This document shows, in pieces, positions 16,526 to 56,544 of a stretch of 64,000 bases of DNA. Position 1 is the stretch's first letter; each line of letters starts with the position of its first letter. The DNA is from Methylovulum sp. (GTDB taxonomy: Bacteria; Pseudomonadota; Gammaproteobacteria; Methylococcales; Methylomonadaceae): contig NZ_JAQTZU010000019.1 of NCBI RefSeq assembly GCF_028687615.1, positions 1 through 64,000 of the forward strand. The letters run 5' to 3'. A program made the translations under genes and the position numbers. The notes under the pieces are model-generated. The model saw nothing but the letters and a program-made list of their open reading frames with translations, was not told the DNA's origin and searched no databases.

Positions 16526-18067
16526 TTATAGCCGGTTGCGGACGGCAATGGTTGAAGTAAACACCCTTCTTAACCGATGGTCAGGAGGTGTGATGGAGCC
16601 GCCATTGAAAAAATAAGCCACCGGCTCCAACGTGACATTATCTTCAAGGGATACCGCCACTAGGCTGATGCGGATGCTGACGACCCTGCCCCAGCCAGCG
16701 GCGGGTATTGAGTCGGCCGGCACATAGTAATTGGCCGAACCATAACCAGCAGTTCCAGGTGCATCCAAGTCTTCGCCATACAAAATTTGCATTTGTTCAA
16801 TCCCCTCCACCAATTCTTCGGCATTCCTTGCATCAATCCGCCGATAAAGCGCGGGTTGGAGTGAGGCATTAAGCCTTATGTAATAGCTGATCGTGTGGAT
16901 CGGATAGACTTCACCATTCCCGTAGGTTCTACCTAAATCATTATCGGCGTTACCAAGCGCACAAGCGTTGATGGGGCTTTGCGAAAGCAGGTTTGCTGCA
17001 ACTGTATTAGCTTGAAAGATAGTGGCGGCAGCACAATTTGTTACTATTGCAGAAGCGCAATAATTAGTAGTGTCGACTTTTAAAAAATCAGCGGCCTGCA
17101 AATTTGCGATAGTGGCAGTGGCATCTAAAGTCAGGCCGGCAGTGGCTGCTGCATGGGCGACCACGGTAAAGCTTTGGTCTGCCGCCCTGCGGATGGTGAC
17201 GACATCGGAGCCGCCCAGAGGGGAGGTGATCGCGGCATTGATGGCGGGTGTCCATGCCGCTGGGGACGTTGCTTCAAAGCCGTCAATGGCCCGGTCGAAG
17301 CGATATAAAAAATCGCCAGGTGGGGCAGGTAAATTCAATTTATTGGTCAGTGGTATCCCGCTGTCACATCCTAAAAACCCCGCCATGCGGATGTCGTTAT
17401 TTAGAAACCCCATCGCATAGCGGCCATTTTCTTGTATTCTGGAGAGTGCCTCGAGCATCCGGTTGGTTTGTTTGCTACCGACAAAAACCTGCAATACGCC
17501 GCCCAATAAAAACAGGCCAATCAGCATCGCCACCATGATTTCTATCAGGGTTAGGCCGGTTTGGCGGCGGTAAGTTTGGGGGGGGGGTAAGGGTTTGTAC
17601 GGCTGCCTATTTTCTAGGAGATAAGTTGACGAATGCACTTTGTTTTTTGTTGATGCTAAAAAAGATAGGCCAATGCTTTTGCTTTTATCTTCTAGGGCAT
17701 TTAGGGAGGATGCCGACGACTGCATGGATGCAGGAGGTAGAGCAACGCAGGGAGCAGTTGCCGAAATACCCTGCAAGGAGGTGGCCATGCTGCTATCCAA
17801 GTGATTGATTGAGGAGGATATAAGGATGCCGTAATTCATGCCTAGACCAGTCATTTTGTCACACGCTTGATTATAAACGTCTTTTGCTTGGGCATCGGGG
17901 GCGATGATGGCTATATCAACGTCTGATTCGCCGTGGAAGCGACCCGTTGCGTAGGAGCCAAACAAGTAGACAGGATAGGCAAAGCCTTTGAACGCCAAGC
18001 TGAGGTAGGCCAGTACATTTTTTTGTTTTTTAATTCTGGCGGCCGAGATAGGGTTATTGATGTTCAT
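16526..18067 (-). CDS. pilW: Nucleotidyltransferase (MNT)-PilW in-frame fusion
   Basis: A single 513-codon frame joining two unrelated proteins. Residues 1-100 are a minimal nucleotidyltransferase with the motif GSYATG (37-42) and the metal pair DVD (49-51), as in MntA-type antitoxins. Residues ~100-160 are a low-complexity linker, part of it encoded by a hairpin-rich repeat. From 171 a normal PilW prepilin begins: G171|LTLIEIMVAMLIG, with EALSRIQENGRYAM and the long C-terminal head. A normal PilW leader is under 30 residues, so a separate start is expected; GTG 17638 would give a 28-residue leader and 370 residues, but no clear ribosome site precedes it. A C10 tract sits in the linker. The frame start overlaps the HEPN gene by 14 bases. 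Confidence 0.8.
   Translation of the reverse strand: MNINNPISAARIKKQKNVLAYLSLAFKGFAYPVYLFGSYATGRFHGESDVDIAIIAPDAQAKDVYNQACDKMTGLGMNYGILISSSINHLDSSMATSLQGISATAPCVALPPASMQSSASSLNALEDKSKSIGLSFLASTKNKVHSSTYLLENRQPYKPLPPPQTYRRQTGLTLIEIMVAMLIGLFLLGGVLQVFVGSKQTNRMLEALSRIQENGRYAMGFLNNDIRMAGFLGCDSGIPLTNKLNLPAPPGDFLYRFDRAIDGFEATSPAAWTPAINAAITSPLGGSDVVTIRRAADQSFTVVAHAAATAGLTLDATATIANLQAADFLKVDTTNYCASAIVTNCAAATIFQANTVAANLLSQSPINACALGNADNDLGRTYGNGEVYPIHTISYYIRLNASLQPALYRRIDARNAEELVEGIEQMQILYGEDLDAPGTAGYGSANYYVPADSIPAAGWGRVVSIRISLVAVSLEDNVTLEPVAYFFNGGSITPPDHRLRRVFTSTIAVRNRL
17578..17587. repeat. C10 homopolymer inside the MNT-pilW frame
   Basis: Ten consecutive G on the plus strand (C10 on the coding strand) encode part of KPLPPPQTY just ahead of the prepilin cleavage site. 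Tracts of this length slip during replication in phase-variable genes. A gain or loss of one base would separate the MNT frame, or the GTG-started PilW leader, from PilW. Confidence 0.8.
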
Positions 18068-25213: not shown

Positions 25214-25519
25214 CTAGATCACCCCTTTTTCAATCACCGGCAACACCCAATATTGAATCCCCGCACCGGCAAATTCTTGCTTTAATTGACTCAATAATTT
25301 CACCAAGCCCTGGGTATCGACATACATTTGGATACGAACCCTCTTCTGCCGCCCGCTGACTTGTTCCGCCAACGACAAACCTTGGTTCTCGTGATGGTGC
25401 GCGTTGACGGGAAAGCTGCTGAAACCATGTTCGGCTTCGAGCATTAACAAGGTGTCAACCACCGCTTCTTCCAGGCTGGGCGATAGGTTAAGGGTGAGCA
25501 AATATTCTGTGTGGGTCAT
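25214..25519 (-). CDS. DUF3240 family protein, PII-like, of metal efflux operon
   Basis: A 101-residue cytosolic protein of the DUF3240 type that commonly ends CzcCBA operons. Its ferredoxin-like beta-alpha-beta layout is visible (YLLTLNLSPSLEEAVVDTLL; VRIQMYVDTQGLVKLLSQL), with a His cluster NAHHHEN near 61-66 that could bind metal. The start overlaps the czcA stop (ATGA), so it is made with the pump. A PII-like regulatory role is inferred. Confidence 0.75.
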   Translation of the reverse strand: MTHTEYLLTLNLSPSLEEAVVDTLLMLEAEHGFSSFPVNAHHHENQGLSLAEQVSGRQKRVRIQMYVDTQGLVKLLSQLKQEFAGAGIQYWVLPVIEKGVI

Positions 25520-28500
25520 ACGCTTACCTCATGGTTGCTGGCTGTTTTGTTGACCATAGCCGCCTTATCCTGGCCAAATAATTTGAACAATATCGGCAGT
25601 AAGAACAGGGTCAAAAACGTTGAGGAAACCAAACCGCCGATGACGACTATTGCCAACGGACGTTGGATTTCCGAACCGGGACCGGTGGCGAACAGCAAAG
25701 GGATCAAGCCAAATGCCGCGATGCTCGCGGTCATCAGCACCGGACGCAAACGCCGTGACGAGCCGATCAGCACGACTTTGGCGATGTCCATGCCCGTCGC
25801 CAGTAATTGGTTGAAATAACTGACCATGACCACGCCGTTCAGCACGGCAATCCCCAGCAAAGCGATGAAGCCAACCGAGGCGGGGACGGATAGGTATTCG
25901 CCCGATACCCACAAGGCAAACACTCCGCCCACCATCGCCAACGGAATATTCGACAACACCAACGTGGCCTGGCGCACCGAGCCAAATGTCGAAAACAGCA
26001 GTAGAAAAATCAGGCCCAGCGACACCGGAACCACCACCGACAAGGTGGCGGCGGCGCGTTGTTGGTTTTCAAACTGACCGCCAAATTCCAGCGTATAGCC
26101 TATCGGTAGCGGCACTTTGTCGGCGACGGCTTTGCGGGCTTCATCAACAAAACCCACCAAATCGCGGTCTTGGACATTGCTGCGCACGACGGTAAAACGT
26201 TGCCCGTGTTCGCGGCCTATCGCCACCACGCCTTCGACTTTTTTTAATTGCGCGATTTCGGTCACAGGTACATGACCACCGTTTGGCAAGGTGATTTGCA
26301 GATTGTCGAAGTTAGCGGTATTGCTGTTGCCGCGCAAAATCAATGGTGTACGTTTGATGCCTTCCTGGACGATGCCCAAATTCAGCCCCTCGATTTGCGC
26401 CCGCAACAGGGTTTCTATGCCGTCACTATCCAGTCCCAAACGTCCGGCGGCGGCCTTGTTGATGGTCAATTGCAGAAATTGCATCCCCGCGTTTTGTTTG
26501 GCGAACACGTCACTAGAACCTTGGATATGCTTCAACACCTCGGCGATAGCAACCGCTTTTTCATTTAAAACCTGCAAGTCCGGCCCGAACAATTTCACCG
26601 CGACATCGCCGCGTGTGCCCGTGAGCATTTCCGAAACGCGCATTTCTATCGGTTGGGTAAAACCGAAAGCGATGCCTGGGGTTTGTTCCATCACTTTGCG
26701 GATGTCTTCGATCAGATGGTCTTTGTCGGGCGTATGCCATTGCTCCTTGGGTTTTAACACCAAAAATGTGTCGGTTTCGTTCAGGCCCATCGGATCTAAA
26801 CCCAGTTCATCAGAGCCTACCCGTGACACTACGGTAGCGATTTCAGGGACGTTTTTGAGCAGGTTTTTTTGCACCTGCCCGTCCAGCATCACCGATTGCG
26901 CCAGCGTGATCGATGGCAGTTTCTCCAATTGAACGATAATGTCGCCCTCGTCCATCGTCGGCATGAAGGTGCTGCCGATTTGCATGAATACCACCACCGT
27001 CGCCGCCATTAAAACGCCCGCGCCGATAAAAACCTTTTTGCTGTTATCCATGCACCAAACCAAGACGGGTTTATAAATCGCCTGTAAGTTTCTGGGCAAC
27101 CAGGGTTCTTCATGGGAGACTTCTTTCAACAGGTACGAGGCGATGACCGGAATTACCGTCAATGACAAAATCAACGAGCCGCTTAAGGCGAAAACAATGG
27201 TTAAGGCGACGGGGGTGAACAGCTTGCCTTCCAGCCCTTGCAAGGTCAGTAAGGGCAAAAACACGATGATGATGATCAATATGCCCGACGTGACCGAGGC
27301 GGCGACTTCGCGGGTGGCGCGGTAGATGACATGCAGGTGCGGCAAGCGTTGCGCGGTTTGGGTATGCGCCAAATGGGTGATCAGGTTTTCGGTCACGACC
27401 ACGGCGGCATCGACCAACATACCGATAGCAATCGCCAAACCGCCCAAACTCATCAAATTGGCGGACATGCCCATGTAATTCATCAGGATGAACGTGAACA
27501 AGGCTGCCAAGGGCAAGGCCAGGGCCACCACAATCGCGGCGCGTAGATTGCCCAAGAAAAGCAGCAGCAAGACCACGACCAGTACAATCGCTTCCAGTAA
27601 GGCATGTAATACGGTTTCCACGGCTTTATCGACCAGATTGCCACGGTTGTAAAACACTTTCGCCTCCACGCCTTTGGGGAAGCCCTTGCTGATTTGTGCG
27701 AGTTTTTCTTCAATGCCGACAATGGTTTGCCGCGCATTCGCGCCACGCAAACTCAGAACCAGCCCTGTCACGGATTCGCCTTCGCCATTTTTGCTGACCG
27801 CGCCGTAACGGGTCAACGCGCCGATTTTTACTTCGGCCACATCGCCAATCCTTACCGCAATGCCGTTTTTGCTGTCCACGACCAAGCCGCGCACATCATC
27901 CAGCGTTTTCAAGCGGCCTTCGGCACGGACGATCAAGGCTTCTTCGCCATCGCTTAAACGCCCTGCGCCATCGTTGCGGTTATTGGTTTTTAGGGTTTGG
28001 ATCAGTTTCTCGGTACTGATGCCCCGCGCCGATAAACGCGTGTTGTCGGGAATCACTTCAAAACTTCTGACCAGTCCGCCTAACGAGTTGACATCCGCCA
28101 CGCCAGATACGGTACGCAATGCCGGACGGATAACCCAATCCAGCAAGTCGCGGCGTTCCATCAGCGACAAATCGCCGCCTTCGATGCTGAACATGAACAT
28201 TTCGCCCAGCGGTGTGGTCATCGGCGCAATGCCGCCTTGAATATCGGCGGGCAAGGCCCCCCAAATTCCATTCAAGCGTTCGGCGATTTGCTGGCGCGCC
28301 CAGTAAATGTCCGTGCCTTCTTTAAAATCGACGGTAATATCGGTCAGCGCGTATTTGGCTATCGAGCGCAACACAGTTTGGTTGGGGATGCCCAACAACT
28401 CCACTTCAATCGGTGCGGTGATCCGCGCTTCGATTTCCTCAGGGGTCATGCCGGGGGCCTTGACGATGATTTTTACTTGGGTCGGCGATACTTCGGGAAA

Positions 28501-28611
28501 CGCATCAATTGGAATCTGGTTAAACGCGTAATAGCCACCACCGCCGAGCATCAGCACTAAAATCAGCATCAGCAGCCGTTGGCTTAAGGCAAAACTGATT
28601 AAACTACCCAT
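25516..28611 (-). CDS. czcA: HME-RND heavy-metal efflux pump, CzcA/CusA type
   Basis: A 1031-residue inner-membrane proton-driven pump. Seen: ALSQRLLMLILVLMLGGGGY (TM1), DAFPEVSPTQVKI, the HME hallmark DFKEGTDIYWARQQIAERLN, DEGDIIVQLEKLPSITL, and TM4 GGLAIAIGMLVDAAVVVTEN with the proton-relay Asp and Glu. The first Asp found in TM4 of CzcA (DFG) is replaced by AIG as in CusA-type pumps, while other stretches (DPMGLNETDTFLVLKP) look CzcA-like, so metal specificity is open. Start ATG 28611 overlaps the czcB stop (TAATG); a longer frame to 28638 is unlikely. Confidence 0.92.
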   Translation of the reverse strand: MGSLISFALSQRLLMLILVLMLGGGGYYAFNQIPIDAFPEVSPTQVKIIVKAPGMTPEEIEARITAPIEVELLGIPNQTVLRSIAKYALTDITVDFKEGTDIYWARQQIAERLNGIWGALPADIQGGIAPMTTPLGEMFMFSIEGGDLSLMERRDLLDWVIRPALRTVSGVADVNSLGGLVRSFEVIPDNTRLSARGISTEKLIQTLKTNNRNDGAGRLSDGEEALIVRAEGRLKTLDDVRGLVVDSKNGIAVRIGDVAEVKIGALTRYGAVSKNGEGESVTGLVLSLRGANARQTIVGIEEKLAQISKGFPKGVEAKVFYNRGNLVDKAVETVLHALLEAIVLVVVLLLLFLGNLRAAIVVALALPLAALFTFILMNYMGMSANLMSLGGLAIAIGMLVDAAVVVTENLITHLAHTQTAQRLPHLHVIYRATREVAASVTSGILIIIIVFLPLLTLQGLEGKLFTPVALTIVFALSGSLILSLTVIPVIASYLLKEVSHEEPWLPRNLQAIYKPVLVWCMDNSKKVFIGAGVLMAATVVVFMQIGSTFMPTMDEGDIIVQLEKLPSITLAQSVMLDGQVQKNLLKNVPEIATVVSRVGSDELGLDPMGLNETDTFLVLKPKEQWHTPDKDHLIEDIRKVMEQTPGIAFGFTQPIEMRVSEMLTGTRGDVAVKLFGPDLQVLNEKAVAIAEVLKHIQGSSDVFAKQNAGMQFLQLTINKAAAGRLGLDSDGIETLLRAQIEGLNLGIVQEGIKRTPLILRGNSNTANFDNLQITLPNGGHVPVTEIAQLKKVEGVVAIGREHGQRFTVVRSNVQDRDLVGFVDEARKAVADKVPLPIGYTLEFGGQFENQQRAAATLSVVVPVSLGLIFLLLFSTFGSVRQATLVLSNIPLAMVGGVFALWVSGEYLSVPASVGFIALLGIAVLNGVVMVSYFNQLLATGMDIAKVVLIGSSRRLRPVLMTASIAAFGLIPLLFATGPGSEIQRPLAIVVIGGLVSSTFLTLFLLPILFKLFGQDKAAMVNKTASNHEVSV

Positions 28612-29873
28612 TATTCGCCACTCCCCAAGCCTAACCAATTGGCTTTAAGGGCGACAGCGCCTTTGACGGCGATGGTTTCGGTGCCGGTGAACTCGCCACT
28701 AATTGTGGCTTCTTCCGCTTGTTTACCGATGACGGTAATCGGGATGGCACGGAAGCCTTCCGGGATTTGCACAAACACAAACGCCTTGCCTTCTTGTTGG
28801 GCAATCGCCGTGTTGGGTACGGTGAATACCGGACGGTTATGCGGTTGGATAATTTGCGTGTTGATGCGCTGGCCCGGACGGACATCCGCTTGCGCTCCTT
28901 TGATAATGGCGCGTACCAAAATAGTTTGGTTTTCAGGATTGACCGATTGCCCTAATAAGGTGATATGGGCAGTAACGGGTATCGCTTGGGCGGCTTTGCG
29001 CTGTTCCAATTCTTGCGTCTCGGTGGCGGGTTTTTCCATCAGCACCTTATCGCCAATTTTGATCTGGCCGATGCGCTCTTGCGGGATATTGATCTCCAGC
29101 CACAGTTCATCGAAATTGGCGATGCGGTACAGCGGCGTCAGGCTGTCGATGCGTGCGCCGGCGACTATCATCCGTTCCATGACCACCCCGGTGATTGGCG
29201 AACGGATGTTCAACAGCCCGGATAAATGGCGGGTTTTTTTAAGCTGTTCAATTTCATTGTTGGTCATGCCGGCTATTTCCAGCAACTGTTTATGCTCGTT
29301 GGTTTCCGAAAGCAAGGCGTTGTATTGGCTGTGGGTTTCCTGCCAGCGGCGTTCCGGGATAACGCCTTCATCAAACAGTTTTTTATCGCGCAGGTAAGCA
29401 ATTTCCCCCAGCATCAATTCACTTGAGGCTTTCAGGTATAGCCGTTGCATGGACAGCAAGTCCGAGCTGTTGACCGTAGCCAGGACCTCGCCTTGCTTGA
29501 CCTTATCGCCGATTGCGGCATTCAGTTTCATGACCAAACCTGCTTGCGAGGCGCTGACGATATACTCCTGGGTGGGTGGCACGACAATTTTGGCAGGTGC
29601 GTATAACACCGGAACCTGGGTCACCGGAGCCAGATTGCCTAAGGTCACGCCCAGATTGTTGCTGTGTTCGGTGGAGATTTTGATGGTGTTGTCTAACGCA
29701 AAAGCGGGTAGGGGATAGAATGGCAATACTGCCAACAGTGTGGCTAGGGGCAACCAGCTAGGGTACGCTGTGCGTACCCTTTCATTGTTTACAGTGCCAA
29801 GGCGGATATTACCCAAGTTTGACCTATTGGCGAGTGTCTGGTACGCGCAGCGTACCCTACTTAACTTAATCAT
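28611..29873 (-). CDS. czcB: RND efflux periplasmic adaptor, CzcB type
   Basis: A 420-residue membrane fusion protein. The periplasmic body has the beta-barrel/lipoyl/hairpin layout (EYIVSASQAGLVMKLNAAIG; GEVLATVNSSDLL; a long helical hairpin 170-260; ITGVVMERMIVAGARI). The N-terminus is odd: the hydrophobic export segment (LATLLAVLPF...LPAFA) begins only at residue 43. Residues 5-39 are encoded by a 101-bp inverted-repeat element (29759-29859). ATG 29873 overlaps the czcC stop (ATGA), so this start is natural, but export from a 59-residue leader is uncertain; TTG at residue 41 is an alternative. Confidence 0.88.
   Translation of the reverse strand: MIKLSRVRCAYQTLANRSNLGNIRLGTVNNERVRTAYPSWLPLATLLAVLPFYPLPAFALDNTIKISTEHSNNLGVTLGNLAPVTQVPVLYAPAKIVVPPTQEYIVSASQAGLVMKLNAAIGDKVKQGEVLATVNSSDLLSMQRLYLKASSELMLGEIAYLRDKKLFDEGVIPERRWQETHSQYNALLSETNEHKQLLEIAGMTNNEIEQLKKTRHLSGLLNIRSPITGVVMERMIVAGARIDSLTPLYRIANFDELWLEINIPQERIGQIKIGDKVLMEKPATETQELEQRKAAQAIPVTAHITLLGQSVNPENQTILVRAIIKGAQADVRPGQRINTQIIQPHNRPVFTVPNTAIAQQEGKAFVFVQIPEGFRAIPITVIGKQAEEATISGEFTGTETIAVKGAVALKANWLGLGSGE
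29759..29859. repeat. GTACGC-type inverted-repeat element inside the czcB 5' end
   Basis: TAGGGTACGCTGTGCGTACC (29759-29778) and GGTACGCGCAGCGTACCCTA (29840-29859) are inverted 20-mers with one mismatch, 61 bases apart. The same arms form the core of the family-B copy at 10489-10560. The element keeps the reading frame and codes for residues 5-39 of CzcB, including the paired RVRCAY and RVRTAY. Confidence 0.8.
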
Positions 29874-31180
29874 GGCATAACTCCTACCGCTTGGTTATAA
29901 AATGCCTGGTCGCGTTCGAGCATGACCGCGCGTTCTTTGGCGTTCAAAATCGCTTGTTGGGTCCGTGATTGAATTTTTAGCAAGTCAATCAAATCAATTT
30001 CACCAACGGAAAAAGCGGTGTTTGACATGGTTAAATGTCGCTCGGCGACTTGCTTGAGTTCATTGGCTATGCCCAATTCCACGCGGTTGACTTCCAGATT
30101 GTGCTCGGCCTCATGATGGGCTTGCTCCAGATTGCGGTACAGCAATTCCCGTTCGGCAATCAGGCGGTTCAATTCGACATTGACGGCGGCGATATGCGGC
30201 TGGATATGGGCACTGCCGCCAAACGGCACGTTGACACCAATATTGAAGCTCTCAGTTTTATTACTGCGCGGATCATTAGTAAAACTGTCACTATTGACAC
30301 CGACCACGACATTGCTTTGTCCTGAGCCCGTCAATTTCAGCATGTCCAATTCCGCCTGTTTACGCTCGATCTGGCTGTTGACGGCTTGTAAAGCCGGGTG
30401 GTTTTGCTGGATTTCTGTCAATGCCACCAGTTTTTCCTGAAATGCCCCGGGCATTTTGGTCGTTTGGGTCAGGCTGGTATAGCGTTTCCGTGAGTGCATC
30501 AACTCGGCTTCCGCCATCGTCAGCACGGCGCGTTTTTGCAACAGCTCGGTTTGTGCCAGCAATTCATCGGCGCGGGGCAAATCACCCAATTCGACACGGC
30601 GTTTTATCTTTGCTAATAATTGTTCAAAAATGGCAATTTCCGCTTGCGCTTGTTCGTAACGGATTTTTTGCAGGGACATGTCCCACAACGCGCTTCTGAC
30701 CAAGCCTGCGATACGCAATTTGGTTGCTACTGTCTGGAATTGGGCACTGGCTTCGGCTTTTGCACCGGTTTCTCGCCCGGCCTCACGTTGCCCAAGGTTC
30801 CATAACGGCACTTGTACCGTGGCGTCGATATAATGCAGGGTGCCGCTGGTTGCTTCCTGATAGCGCAAACCCGCTTGCGGCGCACCGGCTATCCAACTTT
30901 GGCTGCGCTGGGTAATCGCCGCCGCTTCTTCTTCCAAAGCATCCAGCCAGTGGCTGTCGGGATATTTTTCCAGTGTCAGATCCACCAGTTTGCTCAAGCT
31001 CAATTGCCGGTCGACGATAATCTGGTCCTGGTGCGGGATGATGGTGCGTTCTTGCGTGGCGGGCATACCATCCGTCGCTGTACAGACAGAAGCGGCAAAG
31101 CTTAGCGGGAATACCAAGCAAACAAACTGGAAATTGACCGGCTTACGCCTGTGTTGCTTTCGGGGAAAATTACAATTCAT
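29870..31180 (-). CDS. czcC: TolC-family outer-membrane efflux protein, CzcC type
   Basis: A 436-residue outer-membrane factor with an N-terminal export signal (FQFVCLVFPLSFAASVCTA). It has two long coiled-coil repeats typical of TolC proteins (LTLEKYPDSHWLDALEEEAA; VELGDLPRADELLAQTELLQ; FSVGEIDLIDLLKIQSRTQQ) separated by beta segments. It forms the exit duct for the CzcBA pump. It is the first of the czcCBA-DUF3240 run of overlapping genes; 220 bp upstream lies a small secreted protein on the same strand. Confidence 0.9.
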   Translation of the reverse strand: MNCNFPRKQHRRKPVNFQFVCLVFPLSFAASVCTATDGMPATQERTIIPHQDQIIVDRQLSLSKLVDLTLEKYPDSHWLDALEEEAAAITQRSQSWIAGAPQAGLRYQEATSGTLHYIDATVQVPLWNLGQREAGRETGAKAEASAQFQTVATKLRIAGLVRSALWDMSLQKIRYEQAQAEIAIFEQLLAKIKRRVELGDLPRADELLAQTELLQKRAVLTMAEAELMHSRKRYTSLTQTTKMPGAFQEKLVALTEIQQNHPALQAVNSQIERKQAELDMLKLTGSGQSNVVVGVNSDSFTNDPRSNKTESFNIGVNVPFGGSAHIQPHIAAVNVELNRLIAERELLYRNLEQAHHEAEHNLEVNRVELGIANELKQVAERHLTMSNTAFSVGEIDLIDLLKIQSRTQQAILNAKERAVMLERDQAFYNQAVGVMP

Positions 31181-32191: not shown

Positions 32192-33286
32192 TCAATGCTG
32201 GTTTTTTAAAAAAGTGTCAAACTGTTTTAAGGTTTTTTTCAGTAAATGGGGGATCAGCAAATTAGGGGGCATTTTCAGCCAGTGTGAACGGATGAACAGC
32301 AAAAAGCGTGCTGTGTGGGTCCACGGGCTATTGCAGCTATTATGATAAGGCTGCAAAGCGGGAAGGAACAGTGGGTCGAGGAAGGTAAAACTGAAAACTG
32401 TGTTGCCTTGTTTGTTGGCGGTATTGATTATTTCAGGCGGTATCGGTGTGTTGAGGATTTTATGCGTATAACGGAGCGCGTAACACAACGCCATTTGTTG
32501 CTTGAGTTCTTCCGCCCGTTGCAGGAGTTTCAGCCAAAAATTTTCTTGATGGGCAAATTCTTTTAGCAGTAGGTCTAGGTCGGATAAATCCCGAAAGCCT
32601 TGCTCAAATTCCCCGCCGTGAAACAGATGGGTTGCGCTATGTAACACGCGGTCTTCCGGTGCCAATACCCAGAAATTGGTGCCAGGTTTGTTGACGATGT
32701 TTGCCAGCAATTTTTTGGCATCGGGGCTAAATTTGTAGGTTTTCGGTAAAATATTATGATGGACATCAATGGATGTCTGCCTTTGAAGATGGCGCATCGG
32801 CGGGATTTCGTGCATCCATTGCCGATAATATTTCTGGTCGTAAGCATCCAAATTGCTGGTCATCCAGCCCGCTTTAATCAGCGCGATTTCAACGTCTGGC
32901 AATATGGCTTCAGGGACTAAAATATCCACATCGGAGAATATCCGTCCTTGGGCGGCGATATTTCCGGCGACATAATAGGCAGAGCCCTTTAAAAAAACCA
33001 GCGGTATGTCTAGCGGTTTTAATGCGGCTTCAATGCAAGTAATTTCCCATTGCAAAGAACGCTCAAAACGTCTTGCAAAAATAAGGCTGGATTGGATGTG
33101 CGCCAAGGCTTTGGCTGGGATTTGTCCCAATAATCCAGCAGCCTCAAAAAAATGGCCGAGACGTGGCAAGACATTGGCTCCCCTCGCTTGCCTGATCAAT
33201 AAGCTCCATTGCGGCAAATCCAAACTAAGCGCAATTTCCGGGTCAATAAAAACCGCGTTTAACAAAGGGATACTTGATCCGTTCAA
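32192..33286 (-). CDS. Nucleotidyltransferase-family protein of the HPr-rel-A cassette
   Basis: A 364-residue protein of the uncharacterised NTP_transf_5-like family. Seen: LVFLKGSAYY (GS at 101-102), GRIFSDVDILVP (metal pair D119/D121) and a third conserved stretch TSIDVHHNI. These are the core motifs of a nucleotidyltransferase; the helical C-terminal half may bind the partner. What it transfers, and to what, is unknown. The start overlaps the HprK-like kinase stop by four bases, and the set with PqqD and kinase recurs in proteobacteria, suggesting joint action on one target. Confidence 0.78.
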   Translation of the reverse strand: MNGSSIPLLNAVFIDPEIALSLDLPQWSLLIRQARGANVLPRLGHFFEAAGLLGQIPAKALAHIQSSLIFARRFERSLQWEITCIEAALKPLDIPLVFLKGSAYYVAGNIAAQGRIFSDVDILVPEAILPDVEIALIKAGWMTSNLDAYDQKYYRQWMHEIPPMRHLQRQTSIDVHHNILPKTYKFSPDAKKLLANIVNKPGTNFWVLAPEDRVLHSATHLFHGGEFEQGFRDLSDLDLLLKEFAHQENFWLKLLQRAEELKQQMALCYALRYTHKILNTPIPPEIINTANKQGNTVFSFTFLDPLFLPALQPYHNSCNSPWTHTARFLLFIRSHWLKMPPNLLIPHLLKKTLKQFDTFLKNQH

Positions 33287-34188
33287 ACCGCTAGTTCCGT
33301 AAATAAGGCGACGGCTTCATCAAGGTCGCTGTAGCTAAAATCGTAGCAATCACTTGCATCGCATAATTGTCCTAAGGCATTAAACCCATCTAAGCCTAAT
33401 ACTGAATAATTGAGACAATTTTCTGCCAATTTGAGCAGTGTTTTTCCTTTTGACAAGGGGATAAGCCCAGTATTTGCCCCCAGCTTGAATTTAGGAAAAA
33501 TCACTTTGGCGGGTTGGGCAGGAATTGCACTGAAATCGACACTATTGTCAGGCGGACGCATGTGTCCGACGCTGCCTTTTAAGGTGTCATGGACAATAGA
33601 CCCGATTACCGCGTCGGGGGAGAATTGGCTTATGATGTCAAGTGATTGGTTTTTTAGGCTGATGGGACGGGGTACTGGGTAAATTAAGCCATCAGCGACA
33701 CATAGCAAGGTCAATTCATCGGATAGCAAGCGCCAGCCACGGCAAACCATAGCGGCACTGAGTGTGCTTTTGCCACTGCCGGGTGCGCCAGGGAAAATAA
33801 ATGCTTGCTTATTAAGTTCCACGACAGCCGCATGGATAATAAGGAATTGGTTGGAATTGCCGGAAATGCACCAATTAAGGCCCCATTCAAAAAAAGCGGC
33901 GGCTTGTGCATACGGCAAAGGTTTAAACGGAATAAATCCATCTAAAGAAAAATTCACTTGAGGGCGAAGATAGCGGCGTATTGATAAGGGCGCCTCGATT
34001 GCCACATTAAAATCAATAAAATCTTCTGCATGTAAAGTATCAAAAGCACCGTACAGGCAAATTAAATGTTCGGCAACAGCGGTAATAGGCGAGGATAGTT
34101 TTACATTGAACAAGCCTATCTTCAACGCTAGGCCATCACTGTTTAGGGATTCGATTATGGCTTTTTTTGAAAATGTCGATAGCTTCAC
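33283..34188 (-). CDS. HprK-related kinase A
   Basis: A 301-residue P-loop protein related to HPr kinase/phosphorylase. The Walker A motif GAPGSGKST lies at 134-142, followed by RGWRLLSDELTLL (the HprK-type second acidic motif) and PVPRPISLKNQS. It lacks the N-terminal domain of true HprK, and no HPr gene is in the window, so the classical role is unlikely. In the HPr-rel-A arrangement it sits with a PqqD-like chaperone and a nucleotidyltransferase, from which modification of a peptide or protein is inferred. The neighbours are 2 bp (upstream) and -4 bp (downstream) away. Confidence 0.8.
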   Translation of the reverse strand: MKLSTFSKKAIIESLNSDGLALKIGLFNVKLSSPITAVAEHLICLYGAFDTLHAEDFIDFNVAIEAPLSIRRYLRPQVNFSLDGFIPFKPLPYAQAAAFFEWGLNWCISGNSNQFLIIHAAVVELNKQAFIFPGAPGSGKSTLSAAMVCRGWRLLSDELTLLCVADGLIYPVPRPISLKNQSLDIISQFSPDAVIGSIVHDTLKGSVGHMRPPDNSVDFSAIPAQPAKVIFPKFKLGANTGLIPLSKGKTLLKLAENCLNYSVLGLDGFNALGQLCDASDCYDFSYSDLDEAVALFTELAV

Positions 34189-34190
34189 GA

Positions 34191-34484
34191 CTAATAGTTT
34201 TCCATCACTTCAATTAATCCGAGATTTTCATAGTCAAAGATTAGCTTATCCAAGTAGGCTTCTAAGTCAAAATCTACTGGCAATTCAAAGGTGGCTACGC
34301 AATGCGCCAATAATTGGGGGCGGGTAAGGCAATGTTCTAAAATGGCTTTATACAAAAAACCACCCATTTCATCAAGTAAATGAGTTTTACCGCTTAATTC
34401 ATGATAGACAACACATTCATCTGATGCAAAATAGCAACTGATGCCAGCGTTTTTAGGCAAGGCGACGGTATAGTTTTTAAACAC
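34191..34484 (-). CDS. PqqD-family peptide chaperone of the HPr-rel-A cassette
   Basis: A 97-residue winged-helix-like protein matching the PqqD/RRE pattern: ECVVYHELSGKTHLLDEMGG, FLYKAIL, and an acidic C-terminal helix (LEAYLDKLIFDYENLGLIE). PqqD-like domains hold leader or core peptides for modifying enzymes. It is the first of the three cassette enzymes, two bases before the kinase, and 22 bp after the Tat-signal protein that may be its client. Confidence 0.78.
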   Translation of the reverse strand: MFKNYTVALPKNAGISCYFASDECVVYHELSGKTHLLDEMGGFLYKAILEHCLTRPQLLAHCVATFELPVDFDLEAYLDKLIFDYENLGLIEVMENY

Positions 34485-34506
34485 GTCAGGCGGGATGAGT
34501 TAAAGA

Positions 34507-35055
34507 TTACCGGGAGAAAGTCGAACGCAAAAAATCCGTATCACTTGAGTAACCCGCAGGGCGGCCCGAAGGGTTGTCATATAATTCGATAACTTGTATT
34601 GGCTTTAATACATAGCTGTTTGAGGCTTGGGCATTCAAAAAAGCGGCGATATATACGGATTCGCGTGATTCGGTGCTTTGCTCTATGATTTCGCCAAAAC
34701 TATGGCTGTTTGTGCTTCTTTGAAATACGCTGTTAAAAACCGTGTCTTGATTATAGTCACCAATAGTAGGGAAGTTGGAGATTTTCGAAGAAGAATCGGC
34801 AAGAACAAGCGAAGAAGTCTTGGAAGGTGCAAGTGAGGCTGGGCTTATAGGGCCTGACTGGCAATTTGGGGTGATGGGACGGGATAGATTACCAGAGGCG
34901 ACTTGTGAAGCGCACAAAACAGATTCACCAAAAACGCTCGGACTCGTAAACGTTAAAATTACGGGAGCAACAACACCTGCTTTTTGTAAAAAGCGACGTC
35001 TTTTGCTTACATCGACTTTTTCCTTGCATTGATTCTCTAATTTTTGATTATTCAT
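34507..35055 (-). CDS. Tat-signal secreted protein, candidate substrate of the HPr-rel-A cassette
   Basis: A 182-residue protein with a twin-arginine type signal SKRRRFLQKAGVVAPVILTF, cleaved probably near VFG-ES. Straight after it comes CASQVASGNLSRPITPNC: two Cys bracketing an SGNLSRP box. The rest is Ser/Asn-rich with no enzyme motif. It is the first gene of the four-gene run and would be exported folded, which fits a protein modified in the cytoplasm first. The link to the PqqD/kinase/nucleotidyltransferase genes rests on gene order alone. Confidence 0.65.
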   Translation of the reverse strand: MNNQKLENQCKEKVDVSKRRRFLQKAGVVAPVILTFTSPSVFGESVLCASQVASGNLSRPITPNCQSGPISPASLAPSKTSSLVLADSSSKISNFPTIGDYNQDTVFNSVFQRSTNSHSFGEIIEQSTESRESVYIAAFLNAQASNSYVLKPIQVIELYDNPSGRPAGYSSDTDFLRSTFSR

Positions 35056-55842: not shown

Positions 55843-56544
55843 ATGAACAAATTTAAAACATTATCAAGCGGCCTTTTGTTAGCCGCCGTCCTGGGCTTAA
55901 GCAATCAGGCCCAGGCGTTAGTTATTGATACTTTTGACACAACGCCAATGTCTGTGTCGGGTACCGTCCCTGCAACAAGTGGACAGACAATTGCCCCTGA
56001 AGCCATCCAAGGTTATCGTCAGCTTGATATTGTCAGCACTAACGGCAATGTCGTTATTAATACAAATACAACGCCAACTTTTGGCGCTCTGTCAGTCAGT
56101 AATGCCGCTGATGTGATTTCACAAACTTCCGTGCTGTGGAATGGTAACAACACTGGTTTGTTTGGCGGTGTAGATTTAACTGACGGTGGTGCATCTACAG
56201 CTTTGTTGTTGGCGATTACTTCGATTGACCAAGGTAATGTGACAATTACTTTTAAGGTAAGAGAAAAAACTAGTGCGGGTGGCGAGACAGCAACTCTGGC
56301 ATTAACTGGCTTGGGCGTAGGTACACAAAGCTTTTTGTTCTCTTCATTTGCTAACTTCGCAGCTGTTGATTTTACTCAAGTGAATAAAATCGAGATGATT
56401 ATTGACGCCGGTAGTGCATCTGATTTGACATTGGATATGGTTGAAACCAATCAAGATATCAACTTGCCAGAGCCTTCCAGTTTAGTGCTGATGGGTCTTG
56501 GTTTGGCTGGTTTGTCTTTTTTGCGTAAAAGAAAAGCGGCTTAA
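55843..56544 (+). CDS. PEP-CTERM sorting-domain protein
   Basis: A 233-residue exported protein. A signal peptide (LSSGLLLAAVLGLSNQAQA) precedes a beta-rich, Ser/Thr/Asn-rich mature part with no catalytic motif. The C-terminus is a textbook exosortase target: LPEPSSLVLMGLGLAGLSF followed by LRKRKAA. Exosortase would cut at the PEP box, and such proteins usually end up in the exopolysaccharide matrix. No exosortase gene is in the window. A strong terminator follows, so it is a single-gene unit under the sigma54-type promoter. Confidence 0.93.
   Translation: MNKFKTLSSGLLLAAVLGLSNQAQALVIDTFDTTPMSVSGTVPATSGQTIAPEAIQGYRQLDIVSTNGNVVINTNTTPTFGALSVSNAADVISQTSVLWNGNNTGLFGGVDLTDGGASTALLLAITSIDQGNVTITFKVREKTSAGGETATLALTGLGVGTQSFLFSSFANFAAVDFTQVNKIEMIIDAGSASDLTLDMVETNQDINLPEPSSLVLMGLGLAGLSFLRKRKAA

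Follow-up and report, generated by a model that had tools for sequence, protein, structure and literature searches.

Gene content and enzymes of the cassette

The window analysed here is a 64,000 nt stretch of Methylovulum sp. DNA (positions 1 to 64,000 of contig NZ_JAQTZU010000019.1). Four closely packed genes occupy positions 32192-35055 on its minus strand, with gaps of 22, 2 and -4 bp, just as the first-pass annotation had described them. They encode a 182 aa protein with a twin-arginine (Tat) signal (34507..35055, minus strand), proposed below to be the substrate or precursor; a 97 aa PqqD-like RiPP recognition element (RRE; 34191..34484, minus); a 301 aa HprK-related kinase A (33283..34188, minus), which adjoins the RRE gene with only 2 bp between them; and a 364 aa nucleotidyltransferase (32192..33286, minus), which starts with TTG and overlaps the kinase stop codon in the sequence TTGA. 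The identities given earlier to the three enzymes were borne out by profile models, as the PqqD-like protein scored 46.5 bits against TIGR04353 (cut-off 35), the kinase 366 bits against TIGR04352 (cut-off 200) and the nucleotidyltransferase 171.6 bits against the Pfam model PF14907 (cut-off 31.2). Because the kinase and RRE lie above curated cut-offs, they are members of the NCBIfam HPr-rel-A set. The nearest named relative is Methylovulum miyakonense, with a kinase 76% identical and a Tat protein 67% identical.

Just downstream of the cassette (25516-31180, minus strand) is an RND-type efflux operon encoding a pump, a membrane fusion protein and a TolC-like outer membrane protein. Elsewhere in the window, a single ORF (16526-18067, minus strand) has a nucleotidyltransferase-like start (GSYATGRFHGESDVDI) and runs into a PilW-like prepilin (TGLTLIEIMVAMLIGLFLLGG), representing either a fusion or a read-through ORF.

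The AlphaFold model of the PqqD-like protein (pLDDT 91.6) shows a predicted RRE fold, an N-terminal sheet followed by three helices. Its best match in the PDB was the lasso protein TbiB1 with leader peptide (E 3e-5, TM 0.76-0.83), and another top match was a lasso peptide synthetase B1 (6jx3), also solved with leader peptide. The kinase carries a Walker A motif, GAPGSGKS, at residues 134-141 (33766..33789, minus strand). Across 169 loci, its residues H119, K140 (the Walker lysine, 100% conserved), D157 and E158 are 99-100% conserved. At E158, an invariant Glu stands at the position of the second catalytic Asp of HprK and lasso kinases, and this counts against the main reading given below. In the nucleotidyltransferase, K100, G101, D119-x-D121, D174 and H176 are completely conserved (155 loci). 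A second, short HprK-like match, below the family cut-off, was seen inside a 652 aa open frame elsewhere in the genome (G000:C24:14451-14603).

The cassette had been said to lack HPr, and this extends beyond the cassette, with no PF00381 match in the whole genome (99.96% complete). HPr was rejected as the kinase target on this ground. The kinase itself scored only 15.9 bits against the hpr-ser model, for which the cut-off is 240.

The Tat protein and its signal

The kinase alone served to retrieve loci: 80 came from a homology search with the window kinase, and the others scored above the TIGR04352 cut-off in one family sample and one phylum sample of genomes; removal of identical kinases left 169 loci, some of which are still close relatives. 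The same genes were found in the same order in these loci and, since the kinase was the sole query, the arrangement is not due to chance. By signal profile, 144 of the 169 loci have a Tat-signal ORF. In 138 of these the ORF shares the strand of the kinase and starts the set less than 1.5 kb upstream; in the other six it occupies another nearby position. The background of the profile was seven off-position matches among 19,726 ORFs. Of the 25 loci without a match, several are cut off by the end of the contig a short way upstream, and in others a divergent Tat signal can be made out by eye. In the phylum-wide sample, a Tat-signal ORF was present in 52 of 58 assessable loci (divergent signals read by eye included). 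Viewed from the other side, 39 of the 40 genomes with the Tat protein, among the 201 genomes of the family, also have the kinase, and in the sole exception the Tat gene is 249 bp from a contig end.

The gene set holds through rearrangement, as the Tat gene is still present when doubled or relocated. Some cassettes carry two Tat genes (L057, L120, L227), and the order tat-pqqd-tat-hprk-ntp in L057 and L227 suggests precursor duplication. In L100 and L129, the Tat gene lies on the other side of the cassette in opposite orientation. One cassette is broken (L261, G016:C2:2020506-2029066), the kinase and the nucleotidyltransferase each being in two pieces, those of the latter about 1.4 kb apart. 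A MAG labelled Bacteroidetes (L066, CANJPX010000183.1) has a cassette very close to those of Methylococcales, and the contig is probably mis-binned.

The Tat protein has no Pfam or NCBIfam family match, and substrates of several classes compared with the same databases gave nothing above a cut-off. Its AlphaFold model (pLDDT 78) has a confident, all-helical C-terminal half, and the protein gave no PDB relative by Foldseek, VIA or sequence profile. The first-pass annotation had pointed to a sequence box and a second Cys directly after the signal, and both are present: CASQVASGNLSRP occupies residues 48-60 and the second Cys is C65 (34861..34863, minus strand). In an alignment of 52 class-1 homologues, which are 20-67% identical to the window protein, the twin arginines are conserved (R20 in 51 of 52, R21 in 50), as are S54 (all 52), S50 (51), S58 (49), C48 (47) and C65 (49). 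The box consensus C-x-S-x3-S-G-N-x-S (C48 to S58; 34882..34914, minus strand) is a candidate modification site. The SGN part of the proposed SGN.SRP box is conserved but the RP is not, R59 and P60 not being majority residues. In most homologues the box is followed by C-x-G-x-S-P-G-Y-W and, further on, by L-N-A; the YW has been lost from the window protein. A lipoprotein reading of the post-signal Cys was rejected, because Gln is the commonest residue directly before it and a lipobox is absent. None of the Tat proteins inspected ends in a PEP-CTERM-like tail.

The signal itself (residues 19-43, RRRFLQKAGVVAPVILTFTSPSVFG; 34927..35001, minus strand) is the proposed recognition element of the RRE. 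Homologues of the window protein give the consensus RRxFxKAG.AAPV.LTL.SRPV.G, and across all classes the signal reads RR-x-[FL]-x-K-G/A ... A-P-V/A-x-[LM]-T-L-x-S, more loosely in class 3. A 34-position profile of the signal matched only cassette proteins at E<0.03 in 21 genomes, showing that this is not a generic Tat signal; the profile missed one cassette-bearing genome (G170) and is therefore of limited sensitivity. TatC is encoded in the genome of the window.

Co-occurrence of the box with the enzymes, proposed earlier as a check, holds in part. With a loose pattern, the SGN box was found in 77 of the 144 loci with a Tat-signal ORF, but the other loci share just the signal and a nearby Cys, which follows soon after the signal in 143 of the 144. 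In class 2 substrates (37 loci) the core ends in SCWxSF and in class 3 (nine loci) in TC[FY]ASLQMPR, and the end motifs of both contain a Cys beside a Ser. The box was accordingly rejected as a universal substrate tag, given its presence in only these 77 loci and the variable RP. It is the signal that unites the substrates, as it is kept between classes while the cores are unrelated.

Association with exosortase and exopolysaccharide genes

The commonest recurrent neighbours of the kinase loci are sugar and polysaccharide genes, represented by the XrtA/PEP-CTERM amidotransferase TIGR03108, glycosyltransferase TIGR04063, the FemAB-like TIGR03019 and UDP-glucose dehydrogenase-like genes. Among the 201 family genomes, 64 have both the kinase and TIGR03108, three the kinase alone, ten TIGR03108 alone and 124 neither. 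The amidotransferase is thus present in 64 of 67 kinase genomes and in 10 of 134 others (Fisher p 1e-37, a value that ignores genome relatedness), and it lies within 10 kb of the kinase in 39 of the 64. The strict XrtA exosortase (TIGR03109) shows a looser association than the amidotransferase, being present in 30 of 67 kinase genomes; many kinase genomes have just a weaker exosortase match.

In the genome of the window, the amidotransferase is on a different contig and not beside the cassette, which counts against the main reading. An XrtA exosortase gene (325 bits, above the TIGR03109 cut-off) is on the same contig as the window (G000:C51:68731-69504), about 35 kb from the cassette and about 4.7 kb past the window end. 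A secreted protein encoded within the window (55843-56544, plus strand) ends in PEPSSLVLMGLGLAGLSFLRKRKAA, a PEP-CTERM-type sorting tail, and this fits the presence of an exosortase in the genome.

Where the amidotransferase is next to the cassette, it scores 1081 bits against TIGR03108 and 252 against the lasso cyclase model (cut-off 525). The XrtA amidotransferase, as in L232 (5913-7817) and in similar neighbours elsewhere, is a relative of Asn synthase. Exopolysaccharide cassettes with an RRE, HprK-like kinase, nucleotidyltransferase and amidotransferase resemble a lasso kit lacking B2, and might wrongly be annotated as lasso clusters.

Proposed function and comparison with known systems

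The cassette probably carries out RiPP-like maturation of a protein that is then exported and may serve an exosortase-linked surface system. A protein modification system acting on the Tat protein was also the first-pass view, and it is favoured by the co-occurrence of enzymes and Tat protein, the lasso-RRE-like fold and the lack of HPr, whereas the SGN box has turned out not to be a general feature of the substrates. That the Tat protein is the substrate is very likely.

A scheme may be drawn by analogy with PadeK, PsmK and PsmN, with LppK, and with the precedents of RRE-leader recognition and Tat chaperones. The RRE would bind the Tat signal at its conserved hydrophobic part, giving the signal a second role as leader; the case for this binding is evenly poised. 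Binding may delay export, as redox maturation chaperones do, while the N-terminus of the mature part is presented to the enzymes. The HprK-like kinase would then phosphorylate a conserved Ser, with S54 favoured and S50 or S58 possible, and phosphorylation of Ser by the kinase is a reasonable expectation. Somewhat more tentatively, the PF14907 enzyme may add a nucleotidyl or sugar-phosphate group onto the Ser phosphate. The finished protein would be exported by Tat and serve the exosortase/PEP-CTERM exopolysaccharide system at the cell surface, a role with about an even chance of being correct. Ser positions do not obviously coincide among the three substrate classes and thus point to no single universal phosphosite, which weighs against the main reading. 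In a more far-reaching form, the Tat signal is a RiPP leader, the kinase and nucleotidyltransferase build a Ser-phosphate-sugar (or nucleotidyl) group, and folded export links the protein to the exosortase-associated exopolysaccharide; this combination is rather unlikely as a whole.

Other readings of the locus are improbable to varying degrees. The kinase might act on another cytoplasmic protein in a regulatory, HPr-like manner, with the Tat protein no more than an envelope component that belongs to the same exopolysaccharide system and is transcribed along with the enzymes. The enzymes do belong to the HprK superfamily and are often found in exopolysaccharide loci, but the genome is without HPr, the gene set stays together where the Tat gene has been moved or doubled (L100, L129, L057), and neither the RRE nor the use of one signal on Tat proteins with unrelated cores would be explained, making this improbable. 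About equally improbable is a modification centred on the conserved Cys residues (C48/C65), such as a Cys-linked cofactor or crosslink, for which the kinase and nucleotidyltransferase merely activate an intermediate. The near-constant Cys after the signal, the second Cys (49 of 52 homologues) and the placing of Cys beside Ser in the class 2 and 3 motifs speak for it, but Ser is the target of homologous kinases, conservation is stricter at S54 than at C48, and Cys pairs of exported proteins ordinarily form disulfides.

Finally, the three enzymes might make a small lasso-like or LPP-type peptide, with the Tat gene an unrelated neighbour. Paeninodin-type lasso clusters and LPP clusters do use an RRE, HprK-like kinase and nucleotidyltransferase for tailoring, and the cassette often has an Asn-synthase-like amidotransferase as its neighbour. 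That amidotransferase, however, fits TIGR03108 and does not reach the cut-off for a lasso cyclase, no other recurrent gene resembling a precursor was seen among ORFs from 40 aa upwards, and the partner found consistently is the Tat gene, so this alternative is very improbable.

The preferred reading, maturation of the Tat protein, assigns to the named HPr-rel-A enzyme set a candidate substrate family along with candidate residues and a physiological setting. RRE-guided chemistry would then reach beyond small secreted peptides to proteins exported by Tat, and the reading gives a first handle on the role of an accessory module linked to exosortase/PEP-CTERM exopolysaccharide systems. The cassette recurs across Proteobacteria with exosortase-linked exopolysaccharide genes, and the organisms carrying it include cultured methanotrophs (Methylovulum miyakonense, Methylomonas). 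If the signal does act as leader for conjugation, this would be a new route to protein-polysaccharide conjugates and a new function for exosortase loci.

The HPr-rel-A system (TIGR04352, HprK-related kinase A; TIGR04353, PqqD family peptide chaperone) comprises the same kinase and RRE families as the cassette, but it has no model for the Tat substrate or for the nucleotidyltransferase. In the literature covered, which included few subscription journals, no paper on this system turned up under its accessions or names. The XrtA/PEP-CTERM exopolysaccharide loci (PMC1569441) are linked to the cassette through co-occurrence in genomes and frequent adjacency to members of TIGR03108, TIGR04063 and TIGR03019; the 2006 description of these loci, searched for HPr and nucleotidyltransferase, gave nothing for either.

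The chemistry had been regarded as undescribed, which holds only in part, since related HprK-like kinases and nucleotidyltransferases polyphosphorylate Ser and can add hexose in paeninodin and pseudomycoidin, and the kinase of linear polyphosphorylated peptides (LPPs) also polyphosphorylates. In lasso precursors, it is the C-terminal Ser that PadeK and PsmK (poly)phosphorylate, and the attachment of hexose to the phospho-Ser is linked to, or requires, PsmN (PMC9266682). These lasso systems share with the cassette an HprK-like kinase, a nucleotidyltransferase homologue and the RRE B1, but the cassette substrate is a Tat protein of roughly 180 aa, and inspection of the window cassette found no lasso cyclase (Asn-synthase type) or B2 peptidase. 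In LPP clusters, which hold the RRE LppB and LppN, LppK polyphosphorylates core Ser3 (PMC13381572). LppN was inactive in its test host (PMC13381572), leaving the chemistry of the nucleotidyltransferase uncertain, again a point against the main reading.

LPP clusters share with the cassette a discrete RRE, an HprK-like kinase and an NTP transferase, a location within polysaccharide clusters (capsular polysaccharide loci in the case of LPPs), and products with a conserved N-terminus and variable C-termini (PMC13381572). They differ in their YxxPxVLxHQxIxFETxxS leader, SipW-like peptidase and MsbA-like exporter and are mostly found in Bacillota, whereas the cassette has a Tat signal and a folded domain and occurs in Proteobacteria. 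The leader motif is absent from the window Tat protein and the family consensus, and neither a SipW-like signal peptidase nor an MsbA-like transporter was seen, on inspection, around the window cassette or among the recurrent neighbours listed. With these parts missing, as well as the lasso cyclase and B2 peptidase, membership of the lasso or LPP systems was rejected.

Many RREs read [W/Y/L]xxP-like leader motifs (PMC12710340), but no [YW]xxP motif is present here; only P-V/A-x-[LM]-T-L is shared, without the Pro in class 3, which also counts against the main reading. The hydrophobic core of a Tat signal is what Tat chaperones recognise (PMC3316669). The proposed likeness to Tat proofreading chaperones (REMPs such as DmsD and TorD) lies in reading this core and holding back export until maturation, although REMPs assist the insertion of cofactors into redox enzymes and come from a protein family different from that of the PqqD-like protein. 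The cassette is best read as a variant of the paeninodin/LPP-type RRE-HprK-nucleotidyltransferase machinery, in which the kinase and RRE are already named in NCBIfam and the Tat-exported protein substrate, the idea of the signal as leader and the exosortase link are new.
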